This document shows, piece by piece, positions 3,716 through 17,021 of a stretch of DNA of 21,382 nucleotides. Origin of the DNA: a virus; the IMG/VR virus record IMGVR_UViG_3300037040_000027, positions 1 to 21,382 of that record. One strand, written 5' to 3'. Each line of letters opens with the position of its first letter. The stretch's first letter is position 1. The translations under genes were made by a program, and so were the position numbers. The notes under the pieces are model-generated. The model had not been told where the DNA came from. It ran no database searches and worked only from the letters and a program-made list of their open reading frames with translations.

Positions 3716-3739
3716 TGACAGTCCGCTTATAAACTGTCA
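3716..3739 (+). promoter_or_regulatory. inverted-repeat leader shared with the tRNA
   Basis: TGACAGT (3716-3722) and ACTGTCA (3733-3739) form an inverted repeat. The stretch ATAAACTGTCAAGC (3729-3742) is identical at 13 of 14 positions to 13229-13242, directly before the tRNA near 13.2 kb, where TGACA and TGTCA are also paired. It is a shared leader, processing or control element. Confidence 0.55.
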
Positions 3740-3740
3740 A

Positions 3741-3786
3741 GCGAGTGGGAACCGGCCTATTGAGGGATCGTACCCCTCACACTCGC
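3741..3786 (+). ncRNA. truncated tRNA-like element (acceptor plus T arm)
   Basis: GCGAGTG (3741-3747) pairs with CACTCGC (3780-3786). Inside, GAGGG (3762-3766) and CCCTC (3774-3778) close a 7-base loop, ATCGTAC. Between the 5' acceptor strand and the T-like stem there are only 13 bases, and these contain GAACCGG, the same D-loop heptamer found in the tRNA at 13242. The upstream leader is also shared with that tRNA. It reads as a tRNA that lost most of its D and anticodon arms, or a deliberate minihelix. The ATG at 3789 follows two bases later. Confidence 0.5.
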
Positions 3787-3788
3787 CT

Positions 3789-4244
3789 ATGAGCTACAAA
3801 TTACGATGTACCGAGGATACTTATGGATACCTGCTGTGGTACGGCAAGGGGGGCCGGAAGCTAGCTACTCTAGCCCGGCGTGACGGCAATGCCTTCACCA
3901 CAGAGCAGCCCCGGTTCACCGGCATGCTGCGTGAGGTGAAGGAAAAATGGGGTGCCTGGGCAGCAGCGGAATACGCGGGAGGTAGAGTAACGCAAAGCTC
4001 GCCGGTGGACGCACCGGAGATTGCTGGCTCAAATCCAGCCCTCCCGATTATCCAGGAACGTCCTGATTCCGTGTTCGTCGTACGCCAGGGTGAGATCGAT
4101 CACGCCGCCACCCAGGCCGAATCCGATGACTGGTACCGTCATGTGACGGTGCTGGAGCAGAAGCACGCCGAACGCGATCCGTCGTATGTCATGCACATCT
4201 ACCGTCGTCGAGGTGGACCCCCAGTGAGACAGGTGAAACAATGA
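3789..4244 (+). CDS. unknown protein spanning a tRNA-shaped element
   Basis: A 151-residue open frame. The first 60 residues look like ordinary protein (aromatic, then Lys/Arg/Glu-rich), as do residues about 90-151. Residues about 63-87 are encoded by bases that fold as a complete cloverleaf (3976-4047). The ATG lies two bases after a tRNA-like hairpin and has no Shine-Dalgarno, so its translation is uncertain. It might be a genuine gene that carries an RNA element, a gene interrupted by a tRNA, or two shorter genes. The stop overlaps the next start as ATGA, which argues that at least the 3' part is translated. The function is unknown. Confidence 0.45.
   Translation: MSYKLRCTEDTYGYLLWYGKGGRKLATLARRDGNAFTTEQPRFTGMLREVKEKWGAWAAAEYAGGRVTQSSPVDAPEIAGSNPALPIIQERPDSVFVVRQGEIDHAATQAESDDWYRHVTVLEQKHAERDPSYVMHIYRRRGGPPVRQVKQ
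3976..4047 (+). ncRNA. tRNA-like cloverleaf with abnormal D and anticodon loops
   Basis: All four stems pair. The acceptor is CGGGAGG/CCTCCCG (3976-3982, 4040-4046). The D stem is GAGT/GCTC (3985-3988, 3997-4000). The anticodon stem is CCGGT/ACCGG (4002-4006, 4013-4017). The T stem is GCTGG/CCAGC around the loop CTCAAAT (4028-4034). The variable region is 5 bases. Oddities are a D loop without GG and an anticodon loop of six bases (or four if one more pair forms), so no normal anticodon can be read. No 3' CCA is encoded. It is likely a degenerate tRNA or a tRNA mimic rather than a decoding tRNA. Confidence 0.55.
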
Positions 4245-4737: not shown

Positions 4738-5393
4738 TGACAAAGACGTGTTCTAGTTGTAAACTGATAAAGCCTCTCGACGAGTTTCACATGCATCCCA
4801 ATGGGCTGCTTGGCCGAAACTCCCGATGTAGGGTGTGCTGCAATGCCCGGGCGAAGGCGTTTCGTGAAGCCAATCCCGACCACATTAAGCAGCAGAAGAA
4901 AACGTGGGCTGCCGACCACCGAGTGGCAATTCGGGCCTATTCGTTCCAAACACGGGACCGAGCGTGGGAATGCTACATTCTCCGGTTTTACGGCCTCACG
5001 CCGAGTGATTTTGACCGTCTGCTTGTTAGCCAAAACGGGGTTTGTGCAGTGTGCCGACAGGCCGAACATGCAGTAGACCCACGCACGGGTATGACAAAAC
5101 GGTTAGCGGTTGACCATGATCACTCCATGGAGTACGCTGCGGGGAAATGCCGCAAGGAAGCGGTTCGCGGTTTACTCTGCACGAAATGCAACACAGCAGC
5201 GGGAATGCTAGGAGACTCCGTGGAGCGTGCGTTTGAACTGGCCGCATATTTCGAGAAATTTTATGGAGGCAAGAATGTTTCTAGTACAGTGGACTCAGGT
5301 GTTTCCCAACAAAACCAGCATCGTGCATACGATGTGGGTTCCAAGCCGGAGGATCGCCACAAAAGCAGTAAAGGAAATAAAGCGGGAGAGTAA
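4737..5393 (+). CDS. recombination endonuclease VII with N-terminal zinc ribbon
   Basis: A 218-residue frame of the T4 endonuclease VII (HNH/His-Me finger) family, which cleaves Holliday junctions, branches and mismatches. Key residues are C103 and C106, the catalytic DHDH (126-129), RGLLC with C148 and C151, and N152. T4 gp49 has the same order of zinc Cys, DH and Asn. Residues 1-35 add a possible second zinc site (C5, C8, C31, C34/C35), absent from T4 gp49. Start is GTG overlapping the upstream TAG. Residues after about 178 look low in complexity and overlap the gene at 5275, so the functional protein may end earlier. A second endonuclease VII lies at 9406. Confidence 0.85.
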   Translation: MTKTCSSCKLIKPLDEFHMHPNGLLGRNSRCRVCCNARAKAFREANPDHIKQQKKTWAADHRVAIRAYSFQTRDRAWECYILRFYGLTPSDFDRLLVSQNGVCAVCRQAEHAVDPRTGMTKRLAVDHDHSMEYAAGKCRKEAVRGLLCTKCNTAAGMLGDSVERAFELAAYFEKFYGGKNVSSTVDSGVSQQNQHRAYDVGSKPEDRHKSSKGNKAGE

Positions 5394-12312: not shown

Positions 12313-13206
12313 ATGTCAAATATAGACCGTACTGGGGCGTTTCTCGCCACCATCACCGAAGCGGCCTACGGGGAAACGAAGAAGGGCTTCCCCCAGTTCG
12401 TCGCGAAGTTCGTGGCGACGAAGCGGTACGTGGTGGAGAAGTCCGAAATGGCTGTCCTTACGCCGCCAATCACAGAGGCCGGCTGGGTAGACTGGAACTA
12501 CGGCGATGAGATCATCGGCTACCTGGTCCTCTTCAACGACACCGGCCCGTTGAAGAACTTCGAGCAGATTCAACTGGCAACCGGCTGGAGCGGTGCCGAC
12601 TTCCAGGAACTCGCGACCCTCTCCGGCAAGTCAGTCCTGATCCGCGTGGAGGAAAACACATGGGACAACAAGACCAGTCTCCAGGTGAACTGGATCGACG
12701 CCCCGGACGCCTCGCCGGAACGGAGCATCAAGCAGGCCGATGCCCCCACGATCGCAGCGGCCAACAGCAAGTGGCTGGCAGGTCGGAAGGCTCCGCCGAA
12801 GCCCACGGTGGCAGTGGCGTTGCCAAAGCCCGCAGTAGCGAAGCCCGCCGCACCTGCCGCTTCTGCGGTGGCACCTCCTGCTACTGCTGTCCCTGCTGCG
12901 GCAGCCCCTGCACCGACCACAACATCGGCTGCCCCTTCTACTCCTAAGAACCCGCCCGGTCGCAAGCCCAAGGCGAAGGTTGAAGTCCCTGTTGCCGCCA
13001 CCGGCTGCACCCTGGCTGAAGCCTGGGAGGCCGTGAGCAGTGAATCCGCCCGTGGCAAGGTGGAGTTGACGGAGGTGGAGGACCTGTGGCTCACCCACCT
13101 CAACGTGATTGCCAAGGATGTCCCCGATGACAAGGTTACGCCGGAGCAGTACGCTGCCACCCGTGATGCCGTGCTCGCGGAGATCGCGGCGAAGAACAAA
13201 TCCTGA
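12313..13206 (+). CDS. probable ssDNA-binding protein with long Ala/Pro linker
   Basis: A 297-residue protein. Residues 1-150 form a beta-rich domain that reads like phage SSB-type or DUF669-like proteins (TEAAYGETKKGFPQFVAKF near the start, and VLIRVEENTWDNKTSLQVNW near 105-125). Residues about 158-222 are an Ala/Pro/Val/Thr linker, followed by a basic patch (PGRKPKAKVE) and a small helical C-terminal domain. Long disordered linkers are typical of SSBs. Placement after the Sak4-like ATPase and the nuclease supports the role, since Sak4 ATPases are often encoded next to an SSB. No OB-fold fingerprint is certain by eye. Confidence 0.6.
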   Translation: MSNIDRTGAFLATITEAAYGETKKGFPQFVAKFVATKRYVVEKSEMAVLTPPITEAGWVDWNYGDEIIGYLVLFNDTGPLKNFEQIQLATGWSGADFQELATLSGKSVLIRVEENTWDNKTSLQVNWIDAPDASPERSIKQADAPTIAAANSKWLAGRKAPPKPTVAVALPKPAVAKPAAPAASAVAPPATAVPAAAAPAPTTTSAAPSTPKNPPGRKPKAKVEVPVAATGCTLAEAWEAVSSESARGKVELTEVEDLWLTHLNVIAKDVPDDKVTPEQYAATRDAVLAEIAAKNKS

Positions 13207-13215
13207 CAATCGTGC

Positions 13216-13240
13216 GTGACACTGCCGAATAAAATGTCAA
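13216..13240 (+). promoter_or_regulatory. tRNA leader with TGACA...TGTCA repeat
   Basis: TGACA (13217-13221) and TGTCA (13235-13239) are an inverted repeat just before the tRNA. The region matches the leader at 3715-3742 (GTGACA start, ATAAANTGTCAAGC end). It could be an operator, a processing signal or a remnant of duplication. Confidence 0.5.
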
Positions 13241-13241
13241 G

Positions 13242-13314
13242 CACACCGTAGCTGAACCGGTAAAGCACCGGGCACTAGGTCCGGGAGATATGGGTTCGAG
13301 TCCCATCGGTGTGC
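13242..13314 (+). tRNA. tRNA with predicted anticodon CUA (amber)
   Basis: A full cloverleaf of 73 bases. The acceptor is CACACCG/CGGTGTG, and G13241 could pair with C73 to give an eighth pair. The D arm has A14, GG and A21 in the standard places. The anticodon stem is CCGGG/TCCGG (13268-13272, 13280-13284) around CACTAGG. The variable region is five bases, and the T arm is ATGGG-TTCGAGT-CCCAT. Loop positions 34-36 read CTA, so it would decode UAG. Position 33 is A instead of the near-universal T, which weakens confidence that it decodes normally. No CCA is encoded. The short variable region excludes Leu, Ser and bacterial Tyr types. G-1:C73 is a tRNA-His feature. Confidence 0.85.
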
Positions 13315-13334
13315 CTTAACTAGGAGTACAGAAC

Positions 13335-14678
13335 ATGGCAACGATCCTTGTAGCATCAGGCGACGACCTCGCCGCAAAAGTTCAAGCGGCACACGCCGGC
13401 GACGTAGTTCAACTGGCGTCTGCCACATGGACTCTGGTCGCCAGTTTCTTCATTCCCTCGGGTGTGACGCTCCAGGGCGACCCGGACGGAGAATCCGAAA
13501 TCATCTTCAAACTCTCGGGCCAGGACCTTCACGGTATCGTGCTTCCTGCCAACGCCAGCAACATCACCATTCGCAACGTGGATATTGTGTCTAGCAATGG
13601 CCTGATCAAGATGTGCGACGGGCAGGGGTATAATGTTGTCACCATTACGGGCTGCTCATTCGAGTACGGCGGCGGGCAGTACGCCAGCGGCACTGATGTC
13701 TTCGGCATCTTCGCCACGATCCCCGGGTTTGGTCTGACCATCAGCAACAACCTCTTCCACGACTCCCCGAACTCCAACCGCAACTGGGAGTTGTACAATC
13801 AAACGAATCTCACGCTCAAGGACAACACCTTCCACAACATCGTGGATGGTGGCCACGTCGTCGAGCCCGGCAACAACTTCATTTTTGACCACAACATCGG
13901 CTCTGGCATCCAGCGGATGGGGCAGGAGATTCAGGGCAACGGCGTCGTGACTGGCATGCAGGTCACCAACAACACCTTCTACGACTGGCGTAACCCCTAC
14001 GAAGACAGCTTCGGTATGTCCATCGTCATGCTGAACGCGGTCAGCCCCCTGATCCAGAGTAACTACGTCGAGTTCAGTATGGCCCCTGGGGCAGTCTGGG
14101 GGCCGAAGGACTCCACCGGGGCTAACCGGTTCGGGTACGGCTACGAACTGGGAGGCAGCAATGTTCAGCTACTCAGTAATACCTTCGTGGCTCTCTTTCG
14201 CTGTGGTGCGGGATACTGCACTGCCAGCAAGACGACCTACGCCAAGGGGAACACCTCCTACGACGCCAACAAGTTTGCCCAGTGGGGAGACTTTACAGCG
14301 GAGACTGGTGGAGCGTACACCAACGCGGCTACCCTTCTTTCTGACAATGCGGTAGAAACCGGCCCGGCACCACTCCCAAACGTCGCACCGGTGCCCGCCC
14401 CCGTGGTGGTCGTGGCACCGACTCCCGCACCAGTTGTTACGCCTGTGGTGCCCGTCTCCACTACTCCGCCAGTCGTGACTCCTACTGCCCCTGTTGTGGC
14501 ACCCACCGCCCCCGCAGTTACTGTTAAGACCATCGTCATCAGCCTCGTCGAATCTGATGGCTCGAAGGTGGACTATAACCTGTCAGTGAGTCTCGTACCA
14601 CCCAAGCACGTCGCCTCCGGCGTCCTGGCACTGGAGTTGTCAGACGGCACGACGCAGATGTATACGATCAAGGTCTGA
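13335..14678 (+). CDS. parallel beta-helix protein (pectate-lyase-like fold)
   Basis: A 447-residue protein. Residues about 1-335 show repeated short turns with Asn ladders and patterns such as NITIRNVDI, LTISNNLFHD, LTLKDNTFHN and MQVTNNTFYD, typical of right-handed beta-helices that bind or cut polysaccharides. Residues about 345-395 form a Pro/Val/Ala/Thr linker, followed by a small beta-rich C-terminal domain. There is no signal peptide. In phages such proteins are usually tail spikes or depolymerases on the virion, so its position between an SSB-like gene and the primase, just after a tRNA, is unexpected. An AGGAG ribosome site precedes the ATG. The substrate is unknown. Confidence 0.75.
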   Translation: MATILVASGDDLAAKVQAAHAGDVVQLASATWTLVASFFIPSGVTLQGDPDGESEIIFKLSGQDLHGIVLPANASNITIRNVDIVSSNGLIKMCDGQGYNVVTITGCSFEYGGGQYASGTDVFGIFATIPGFGLTISNNLFHDSPNSNRNWELYNQTNLTLKDNTFHNIVDGGHVVEPGNNFIFDHNIGSGIQRMGQEIQGNGVVTGMQVTNNTFYDWRNPYEDSFGMSIVMLNAVSPLIQSNYVEFSMAPGAVWGPKDSTGANRFGYGYELGGSNVQLLSNTFVALFRCGAGYCTASKTTYAKGNTSYDANKFAQWGDFTAETGGAYTNAATLLSDNAVETGPAPLPNVAPVPAPVVVVAPTPAPVVTPVVPVSTTPPVVTPTAPVVAPTAPAVTVKTIVISLVESDGSKVDYNLSVSLVPPKHVASGVLALELSDGTTQMYTIKV

Positions 14679-14690
14679 TGCGGAGGTCCT

Positions 14691-17021
14691 GTGGCAAACG
14701 ACTGGAATGCCCTGCACTGCACGTTTCTGAACAACTGCACGCCGGGGATGTGCCAATGGCTAGGAACGAACCTGGGGGTGACCTCCGAGGCTCTGATCCA
14801 GCTTCAGATCGGGTACTCCCCGCGTGTAGTGTTCGGTGGTAAGGGCCTGAAGAAAGAGTACATTTCGTACGATGGTTGGTTCACCATACCAATGAGGGAT
14901 GAGAATGCGAAGCTGACAGGCTTCAGTCTGAGGAACTGCGGGGGGAAGAAACTGATGTACCCAGGCTCCAAGCCCGGTACGTTCTATGTCGTCAATCCTA
15001 ACCACAGAGAGGGTGAACATGGGTATTCTTCAGGCTCTCATAATTGGGTGCGTGTTGCTGACGCTGGTCAGAATTGCCCAATATGTAACCATAGCGATGG
15101 CTGTTTACTCTCGGCGGAAAACCCGTCTGACCCCAAAGCGGTAGTCTGCATCAGAATGGAAAGCCCCACGCCACTGAAGCTGGGCTGGCTCCATATCAGG
15201 AAAGATACGGGCATCCTGGCCAGTGCTTCCCCCCTCGCCGACAGTGAGAAGCCGGTGCTGGTGGTCGAGGGTATGTCTGACGTGGCAGCGGCTTACGATC
15301 TGGGCTTCCCTGCGATCGGTAAGCCCAACAACATCGGCGGTCAGAACATTGTGGCCGAACTGGTACGCGGTCGCACCGTCATCGTGATGGGCGAGAACGA
15401 CAAGAAAGCCAACGGAGAATGGCCCGGCCAGATCGGTGCCTCGATGTCTCTGAAGTCGTGCTTGACAACGACTGGGAAAGCCCGTATCCTGTTCCCGCCC
15501 GAGCATGTGAAAGACCTTCGGGCCTGGAAGAACAATTATGGCCTGACAGCAGCCACCCTCCTGGCTGATGCCGAGGAGAAGGGCCAGGAGCAGATCACCG
15601 ATGACCTGATCCCCGACGATCGGCCCTTGACTATCTTCCGCCGATTCCTGAAGGAACAGTACACCGCCGGCAAGGTCACGCTGCTGAAGAACTGGGAAGA
15701 CCGCTGGTACGTGTACCACGGTGCAGACGGCTGCTACAACAGCGTAGAGGAGAACGCCCTCATCGGTGAGTTCGCCCGCTGGACCGACAACAAGCAAGTG
15801 ATCATGGACCGTGCCCAGGGTCCCAAGCCGGAGAAGCTGAAGTACACAGCGGGCCTCTGGTCTAGCATGCGTCAGGTGGCTCTGGCTGATGGGTACCTGA
15901 TGGGCACGCTCCCCCAGTGGATCAATGGGAAGAATGGGCTTGACATGCATAGCCTGATCTGTTTTAATAACGGAGTGCTTGATGTTGATGCCTATCTTGA
16001 AAACTCGGCGGTCGCTCTCTTGCCATCCACCCCAGACCTTTTTACCGTTAATGCACTTCCGTTTGCGTTTGACCCAACGGCGACTTGCCCTCTCTGGCTC
16101 AATTTTTTGGAATCGTCGCTGGGTGATGATGCGGCGAAGATACAGTTACTTCAAGAGTGGCTGGGGTACTGCATGACCTCAGACATCAGTATGGAGAAGA
16201 TGCTGTACATGCGTGGCCCGACCGGTCACGGCAAGGGCACCATCCTGAACATCATCTCCCACCTGGTTGGGAAAAAGAACGTGGCCAGCCCCCAGTTCAA
16301 GAAGCTGGCTGACAACTTCGGCCTCCAATCCCTGATCGGGAAACTGGTGTGTCTGATCGGTGACGCTCGCGACGACCGGGCCGGGGCCTCCCTGGTGGGG
16401 GCACTGGAAGTCCTGCTCTCGATCGTGGGTGGTGATGAACTTCAGATCGATCGTAAGTTCCTTCCACGGGTAGAAGGGATCAAGCTGACGACCAGGATCA
16501 CGATCGCCTCGAATATCTTCCTGAATATCCCGGACCCATCAGGTGCGATGGAGCGGCGATTGATGCTCCTGGACTTCCAGAAGAAGGTCACGGAGGATCA
16601 ACGGGATCACACTTTGAAACAGCGGCTCCCCGAGGAGATCGCGGGCATCGCGGCCTGGGCCTTGGAGGGTCTGAGGAGACTGCGTTTAAACGGTGCGTTC
16701 ACTGTACCGGCGTCGAGCCTCACGGCGATGCAGGAGTGGAAGCTGTTCAACAACCCGCTGGCTAGCTTCCTGGACGAATGTACGACGGCGGACCCCAAAG
16801 GTGTGGTGCCTCGTCGCATGCTGTTCGATGGATGGAATAGCTGGGCTGGGGCGAAGCGGCTGCCCGTGGGCACGAAGTCCCAGTTCTTTAACGACATCGT
16901 CACCCTGGCCACCTATGTATCACAAGACAGTATGGAGATCGGTGGCCGGCAGGAGATCATATACCGTGGACTGGCATTCACTTCGGATGCCGCACGGCGG
17001 TACCTCGGCAAACCTTCCTAG
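14691..17021 (+). CDS. TOPRIM primase - SF3 (D5-like) helicase
   Basis: A 776-residue protein starting with GTG after GGAGG. The N-terminus (residues 30-100) resembles the primase core upstream of TOPRIM. A Cys group (C129, C132, C138, C153) looks like a zinc finger placed after it. TOPRIM has E193 (VVEGMSD) and acidic residues in GENDKK (234-239). The helicase shows Walker A GPTGHGKGT (509-517), Walker B ending at D558, sensor N608 and the arginine pair in GAMERR (618-623). The enzyme would unwind DNA at the fork as a hexamer and make primers. The metal-binding module is in an unusual position. It ends in TAG, nine bases in frame before the next ATG. Confidence 0.92.
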   Translation: MANDWNALHCTFLNNCTPGMCQWLGTNLGVTSEALIQLQIGYSPRVVFGGKGLKKEYISYDGWFTIPMRDENAKLTGFSLRNCGGKKLMYPGSKPGTFYVVNPNHREGEHGYSSGSHNWVRVADAGQNCPICNHSDGCLLSAENPSDPKAVVCIRMESPTPLKLGWLHIRKDTGILASASPLADSEKPVLVVEGMSDVAAAYDLGFPAIGKPNNIGGQNIVAELVRGRTVIVMGENDKKANGEWPGQIGASMSLKSCLTTTGKARILFPPEHVKDLRAWKNNYGLTAATLLADAEEKGQEQITDDLIPDDRPLTIFRRFLKEQYTAGKVTLLKNWEDRWYVYHGADGCYNSVEENALIGEFARWTDNKQVIMDRAQGPKPEKLKYTAGLWSSMRQVALADGYLMGTLPQWINGKNGLDMHSLICFNNGVLDVDAYLENSAVALLPSTPDLFTVNALPFAFDPTATCPLWLNFLESSLGDDAAKIQLLQEWLGYCMTSDISMEKMLYMRGPTGHGKGTILNIISHLVGKKNVASPQFKKLADNFGLQSLIGKLVCLIGDARDDRAGASLVGALEVLLSIVGGDELQIDRKFLPRVEGIKLTTRITIASNIFLNIPDPSGAMERRLMLLDFQKKVTEDQRDHTLKQRLPEEIAGIAAWALEGLRRLRLNGAFTVPASSLTAMQEWKLFNNPLASFLDECTTADPKGVVPRRMLFDGWNSWAGAKRLPVGTKSQFFNDIVTLATYVSQDSMEIGGRQEIIYRGLAFTSDAARRYLGKPS

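Follow-up and report, generated by a model that had tools for sequence, protein, structure and literature searches.

Does a phage tRNA whose formal anticodon reads CUA decode UAG, or does it keep the shape of a tRNA for another purpose? The question is raised by element C, at positions 13241-13314 of the stretch of DNA analysed here (the window), which comprises an entire IMG/VR record (21,382 nucleotides, 21.4 kb). In cmscan, element C matched RF00005 at 13242-13314 with 51.9 bits against a gathering score of 29 (E 9.8e-09), and ARAGORN labelled it 'tRNA-Pyl (cta)'. The tRNA-like fold is genuine and not a product of chance. A preliminary description had proposed this fold, together with an A at position 33 and a possible additional acceptor pair, and the analysis agreed on all three: A33 lies at 13274, and G-1 (13241), preceding C1 (13242), is able to pair with C73 (13314), giving an acceptor stem of 8 bp.

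The same description regarded the cloverleaf as canonical apart from A33, which did not hold. We found a Watson-Crick pair between C32 (13273) and G38 (13279) (P 0.995), which turns the usual anticodon arm of 5 bp and 7 nt into a 6-bp stem with the 5-nt loop ACUAG. When the cloverleaf was forced, its energy was -30.4 kcal/mol with this pair and -26.3 kcal/mol without it, a gain of about 4 kcal/mol. The CUA (13275-13277) is therefore at the formal anticodon position, as described, but sits in a 5-nt loop closed by C32:G38. In addition, G13 and A22 are unpaired, G31-U39 is a wobble pair, and no CCA is encoded, C73 being followed by CTTAAC. The unconstrained minimum predicted for element C alone, without tertiary contacts, is a rod (-35.8) in which the acceptor stem and the inner, anticodon-type stem are retained and the D- and T-arms are broken.

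These features bear directly on the proposal that element C is an amber suppressor or another decoding tRNA, which has the CUA and the ARAGORN call in its favor and which we consider highly improbable. An elongator tRNA has a 7-nt loop with U33 and an anticodon conserved among orthologues; element C has A33, the C32:G38 pair with its 5-nt loop, no CCA, and sister orthologues without any anticodon. TAG is also a normal stop codon in 5 of the 24 window genes, in two of them with TGA immediately after. A formal CUA and a 6-bp anticodon stem are shared with tRNA-Pyl, whose core has one base between acceptor and D-stem, a 3-nt variable loop and the CUA in a 7-nt loop; element C, in contrast, has two bases (UA), a 5-nt variable loop (GAGAU) and a 5-nt anticodon-type loop. 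With tRNA-His it shares the extra pair G-1:C73 and a 13-bp acceptor/T stack, whereas the anticodon of tRNA-His is GUG and the formal one here is CUA.

To place element C among its relatives, the D5-type primase was used as the query, and seven related phages, then three distant ones, were found. A near-DNA search of the window region against cultured phages gave no match, and alignment of the primase with genome-collection contigs, in search of a host, found nothing. The same upstream gene lies 5' of the slot in the sister phages. L003 and L004 carry the same cloverleaf-like element with a 5-nt loop as the window. In L005 and L006, whose primases are 96% identical in protein to that of the window and whose DNA is about 81% identical to it over 7.5 kb, the slot holds a 58-nt tRNA-like RNA lacking the anticodon arm altogether, again with G-1:C73 (TATCCTG TA GCTT AATGGTA GAGC GACGTAGGT GCGGG TTCGATT CCCGC TAGGATA C). 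In L008 the acceptor/T stack is split 7+6 bp and a 5-bp mini-arm carries a GUAA tetraloop. L009 combines an 8-bp acceptor, whose last pair is G-U, with a 5-nt loop, and the slot of G005 contains just a hairpin of about 13 bp. Thus, five architectures occupy one slot (window, L003-L006, L008, L009, G005), each followed by the YTTAACYAGGAG Shine-Dalgarno motif, which reads (C/T)TTAAC(C/T)AGGAG across the sisters, and then by the next gene. This gene encodes the beta-helix protein in the window, L005 and G005, and the primase in L008 and L009. Between the window and L005, acceptor pairs 1-72, 3-70, 4-69 and 6-67 have changed on both sides and are compensated.

Since the sister slots are armless or mini-armed while the acceptor/T helix and the slot itself are retained, the anticodon is dispensable here, the helix and the slot being what is kept. 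G-1:C73 had been put forward as a tRNA-His identity mark. Here it is no such mark: the sister phages keep a 13-bp acceptor/T stack with changing bases, split as 8+5 or 7+6 bp, and a His-type extra pair is not found in all of them, L009 having G-U and L008 the 7+6 split.

In two distant relatives, L143 and L144, terminator-like hairpins upstream of the primase occupy the tRNA-like slot. Together with the plain hairpin of G005, and with a terminator-like stem directly 5' of the element in the cultured Polaribacter phage Danklef_1, such hairpins are what would be expected if the element were a cis-acting transcription or mRNA-end structure (an attenuator, a put-type antiterminator, or a 5' or 3' stabiliser) with only secondary likeness to tRNA. 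We consider this unlikely, as the conserved tRNA features of the D- and T-loops and the covariation in a D-stem described below would be superfluous for a plain hairpin, and no T-run follows the window elements.

The neighborhood of element C and of two further elements in the window, A and B, is summarized in Table 1. Element C is intergenic, and the two genes flanking it are on the same strand; transcription through it was assumed. The upstream gene had no Pfam or PHROG match. Closing stems like that of the stem-loop ahead of element C also precede most of the sister elements, and the TTAACTAGGAG motif behind it is kept in all sister phages as TTAACYAGGAG. Neither a promoter nor a terminator belonging to elements A, B or C themselves was detected nearby.

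Table 1. Positions of the elements, motifs and genes of the window considered in this study
Feature	Positions	Strand	Basis or remark
Stem-loop TGACAG...CTGTCA, ending 1 nt 5' of element A	3716..3739	+	sequence
Element A, acceptor/T-arm helix of 7+6 bp	3741..3786	+	fold; homologue comparison
Element B, tRNA-like, 44.4 bits	3976..4047	+	inside ORF 3789-4244
Upstream gene, 297 aa, stop 34 nt before element C	12313..13206	+	
Stem-loop TGACA...TGTCA, ending 1 nt 5' of element C	13217..13239	+	sequence
Element C, tRNA-like RNA	13241..13314	+	RF00005, ARAGORN, fold and pair probabilities
TTAACTAGGAG motif with Shine-Dalgarno, directly 3' of element C	13316..13326	+	sequence, sister comparison
Downstream gene, right-handed beta-helix protein (PF13229)	13335..14678	+	
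D5-type primase/helicase, query for finding relatives	14691..17021	+	

Element A has only 13 nt in place of the D- and anticodon arms, and the ATG of the next ORF (3789) lies 2 nt 3' of it. Its homologues are found in L017 (5232-5287, minus strand) and in G005, where the helix is split 8+5 bp. A stem-loop ending in TGTC lies 1-2 nt 5' of element A and of its G005 homologue; the L017 counterpart of the window stem-loop is GACAGG...CCTGTC.

In element B, a 6-bp stem with a 4-nt loop replaces the anticodon arm. The matching stretch of L017 (4975-5045, minus strand) is likewise tRNA-like and in frame within the conserved ORF (151/162 aa); no homologues of the 151-aa ORF that carries element B were found in viral contigs. 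Element B is 93.2% identical between the window and G005, as compared with 62% and 68% for the flanks within the same ORF (p 3e-7). Two of the five differences together make a compensated pair in the D-stem, and another brings the T-loop back to consensus; with the exception of this last one, they all change the encoded protein. The D-stem pair A11-U24 of the window is replaced by the compensated G11-C24 in L017. The higher conservation of the RNA relative to its flanks, the compensated D-stem and the fact that most changes alter the protein argue for selection on the RNA of element B.

We then scanned viral contigs for similar RNAs with a pattern representing a tRNA from which the anticodon arm is deleted. 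A first, looser pattern gave matches that were mostly due to chance, as judged from acceptor pairing, and was superseded by a specific one. The armless pattern found at least 119 stretches, with 103 distinct sequences among the matches listed; after retention of those with at least 6 of 7 acceptor pairs and at least 4 T-stem pairs, there were at least 74 distinct anticodon-armless tRNA-likes from unrelated phages. A second pattern, with linkers of intermediate length, yielded at least 65 good mini-arm tRNA-likes, 9 with CCA among the matches listed. Mini-arms are thus common too, and the idea that the armless RNAs form a separate, discrete class was rejected. These counts are lower bounds, obtained with patterns that require consensus D- and T-loops. 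Armless matches from the genome collection were excluded from them, being partly assembly artefacts: in L247, L255, L256, L257, L263, L267, L305, L313, L321, L338 and L349, NN stands in place of the anticodon arm, and such draft or metagenome mimics are otherwise normal tRNAs, mostly with an intact CCA. Some matches in bacterial genomes also match viral loci and are, for this reason, prophages.

The 74 armless matches listed carry 66 different 5' acceptor strands and all seven pairs covary widely; at pairs 2-7, only 2 of 444 were non-standard in this set, which had been selected for at least 6 of 7 pairs. The linker from D- to T-arm was 8-9 nt long in 52 of the 74, a sharp peak. CCA was encoded in 5 of the 74, as compared with 11 of 16 ordinary tRNAs from the same loci (p 3e-7). 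Among the matches listed, 35% of the armless and 17% of the mini-arm elements lay inside ORFs of at least 100 aa, as compared with 75% and 70% of random positions, respectively; both kinds avoid coding DNA and are mostly intergenic. They were moderately enriched ahead of a Shine-Dalgarno sequence with a start codon within 70 nt 3' (armless, 26% versus 15% at random; mini-arm, 25% versus 14%; matches listed). A 5' stem-loop in the top 5% of shuffles was present for 10 of 73 and 11 of 64 of the matches listed, versus 11 of 130 random positions (p ~0.06). As this class-wide enrichment is weak, the notion that a stem-loop always precedes the elements was dropped, and the stem-loop is not a defining part of them.

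The elements are found in varied genomic settings. In L163 and L225 a strong GC-rich stem-loop precedes the element, and the two lie together between the genes for the major capsid and tail tubular proteins; in L194 one follows a head-assembly gene, and in L152 one precedes DNA polymerase A. That of Danklef_1 is annotated tRNA-OTHER, Undet_(NNN). Many Lactococcus P335-group phages, which are likewise cultured, carry an element with a CCGTTCGG mini-hairpin in place of the anticodon arm; this element hardly varies among them, in contrast to the variable sequence on either side. In ten records of this group (L242-L244, L475-L481) the CCGTTCGG tRNA-like has no feature annotation; in several of them its place is 3' of the lysin or 5' of the integrase, and the flanking sequence switches at its borders, as it would at a recombination or att site. 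Within 13 kb of the 180-kb record L048 (IMGVR_UViG_2529292852) there are three armless tRNA-likes that differ from one another; a TTTGAAGGA/TTGGAGG-like sequence and similar DNA follow each of them. In L107, L157, L159, L187, L191, L196, L205, L221 and L233, the armless element begins 4-11 nt past the stop codon of a small ORF of about 60-90 aa, a recurrent pair of small gene and tRNA-like; the small ORFs of L191, L196 and L205 matched no Pfam or PHROG family. The integrase-bearing record L185 has a second tRNA-like at about 4983-5056, similar to phage tRNA-Thr and some 250 nt 3' of its armless element; this second match is possibly an attachment site.

The proximity to an integrase in some temperate phages (ul36, D7138), and the frequent occurrence of tRNA fragments at integration sites (PMC9897764), would accord with functionless remnants, either decaying tRNA pseudogenes or former attachment sites. 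This explanation appears decidedly unlikely, since the sequences diverge and yet their stems stay paired, element B has changed less than its flanks, and the linker length is sharply peaked. Moreover, no Phage_integrase (PF00589) or Resolvase (PF00239) domain, which an attachment site would call for, was found in five window-family records, some of which are fragments, and PF00589 was matched in only 17 of 44 armless-bearing records.

Another possibility is that the excised tRNA-like acts freely in trans as a decoy, binding anticodon nucleases or other tRNA-handling enzymes and escaping cleavage through its altered or missing loop. The altered part is exactly what anticodon nucleases attack, the acceptor sequence changes fast between sisters, and phages are known to carry tRNAs with nuclease-resistant anticodon loops (PMC10264068), including the tRNA-Lys of T5 acting against PARIS (PMC11455837). 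Like the present elements, these tRNAs are phage-encoded and altered in the anticodon region; they retain, however, a 7-nt anticodon loop and still decode, which these elements cannot do. A decoy would have no need of a place ahead of gene starts, neither a promoter nor a terminator specific to the window elements was detected near them, and in G005 the slot is reduced to a hairpin. We therefore rate it as rather unlikely. The preliminary description, which had offered such a decoy as one example of another purpose for the tRNA shape, is supported as to such a purpose in general; a cis-acting role accounts better for the constant position of the element ahead of gene starts.

We prefer the hypothesis that element C is a cis-acting, RNase-P-type punctuation mark in mRNA, to which we give about an even chance. 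It is favored because the acceptor/T-arm body at gene boundaries is the common denominator of the elements and because RNase P recognises such a body: the bacterial enzyme measures the acceptor/T stack and the elbow (PMC4919913) and has been reported to cleave the phage RNAs M3 and C4 as well as mRNAs (PMC11143913). Element C offers a stack of 8+5 bp, with the 5-bp T-arm closed by the loop TTCGAGT, between same-strand genes whose transcription is assumed. In the proposed mechanism, a non-decoding tRNA-like RNA is embedded in the phage mRNA, and its acceptor/T-arm stack and tRNA elbow would serve as a recognition site for the host's tRNA-maturation enzymes, RNase P above all. A cut 5' of G-1 would part the mRNA of the upstream gene from that of the next gene. 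Where a stem-loop adjoins the element on its 5' side, as in the window family and a subset of the other phages, the upstream mRNA would keep it as a protection of its 3' end, and the next-gene mRNA would have its 5' end locked in a helix with the Shine-Dalgarno sequence right behind. A second cut, by RNase Z or RNase E, may occur between C73 and the Shine-Dalgarno sequence. Expression of the flanking genes would presumably be affected.

Several observations weigh against this punctuation hypothesis. The rod predicted for element C alone would break the D- and T-arms, and the hairpins of G005 and of L143/L144 point to a possible role as a plain stem-loop at mRNA ends. The enrichment of 5' stem-loops is only modest across the class, and only about 26% of the matches listed (15% at random) are followed within 70 nt by a Shine-Dalgarno sequence and start codon. 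Cleavage at element B would destroy the message, as this element is situated within an ORF.

M3 RNA, C4 antisense RNA and polycistronic mRNAs (PMC11143913) likewise have a tRNA-like part within a longer transcript and no decoding role, and M3 and C4 are phage-encoded like the present elements. Unlike these, the elements described here are near-perfect tRNA bodies with an absent or shrunken anticodon arm, repeated in unrelated phages, and their cleavage is only inferred. In the mascRNA and menRNA of MALAT1 and NEAT1, and in mitochondrial tRNA punctuation, a tRNA or tRNA-like marks a processing point in a longer RNA, and mascRNA has a degenerate anticodon arm. These systems are eukaryotic or organellar, unlike the phage elements.

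No description of such a class was found in the open-licence papers searched, so that this large phage set of non-decoding tRNA-likes is apparently undescribed. It is perhaps an even bet that they represent an unnamed class spread over many phage lineages, with the anticodon arm missing or reduced to a mini-arm, serving as portable intergenic recruiters of the host tRNA-processing machinery or as neutralisers of tRNA-targeting defences. Annotation tools give the elements odd tRNA labels ('Pyl', 'Undet (NNN)') or miss them, and a widespread class of phage RNA may hide behind such annotation. Apparent phage suppressor tRNAs accordingly need to be re-checked before stop-codon recoding is claimed. 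If the elements are decoys, they would represent an RNA-based counter-defence against anticodon nucleases. If they are processing sites, phages would use tRNA punctuation, as mitochondria do, to express the genes of an operon at different levels, the capsid/tail boundary being one example.
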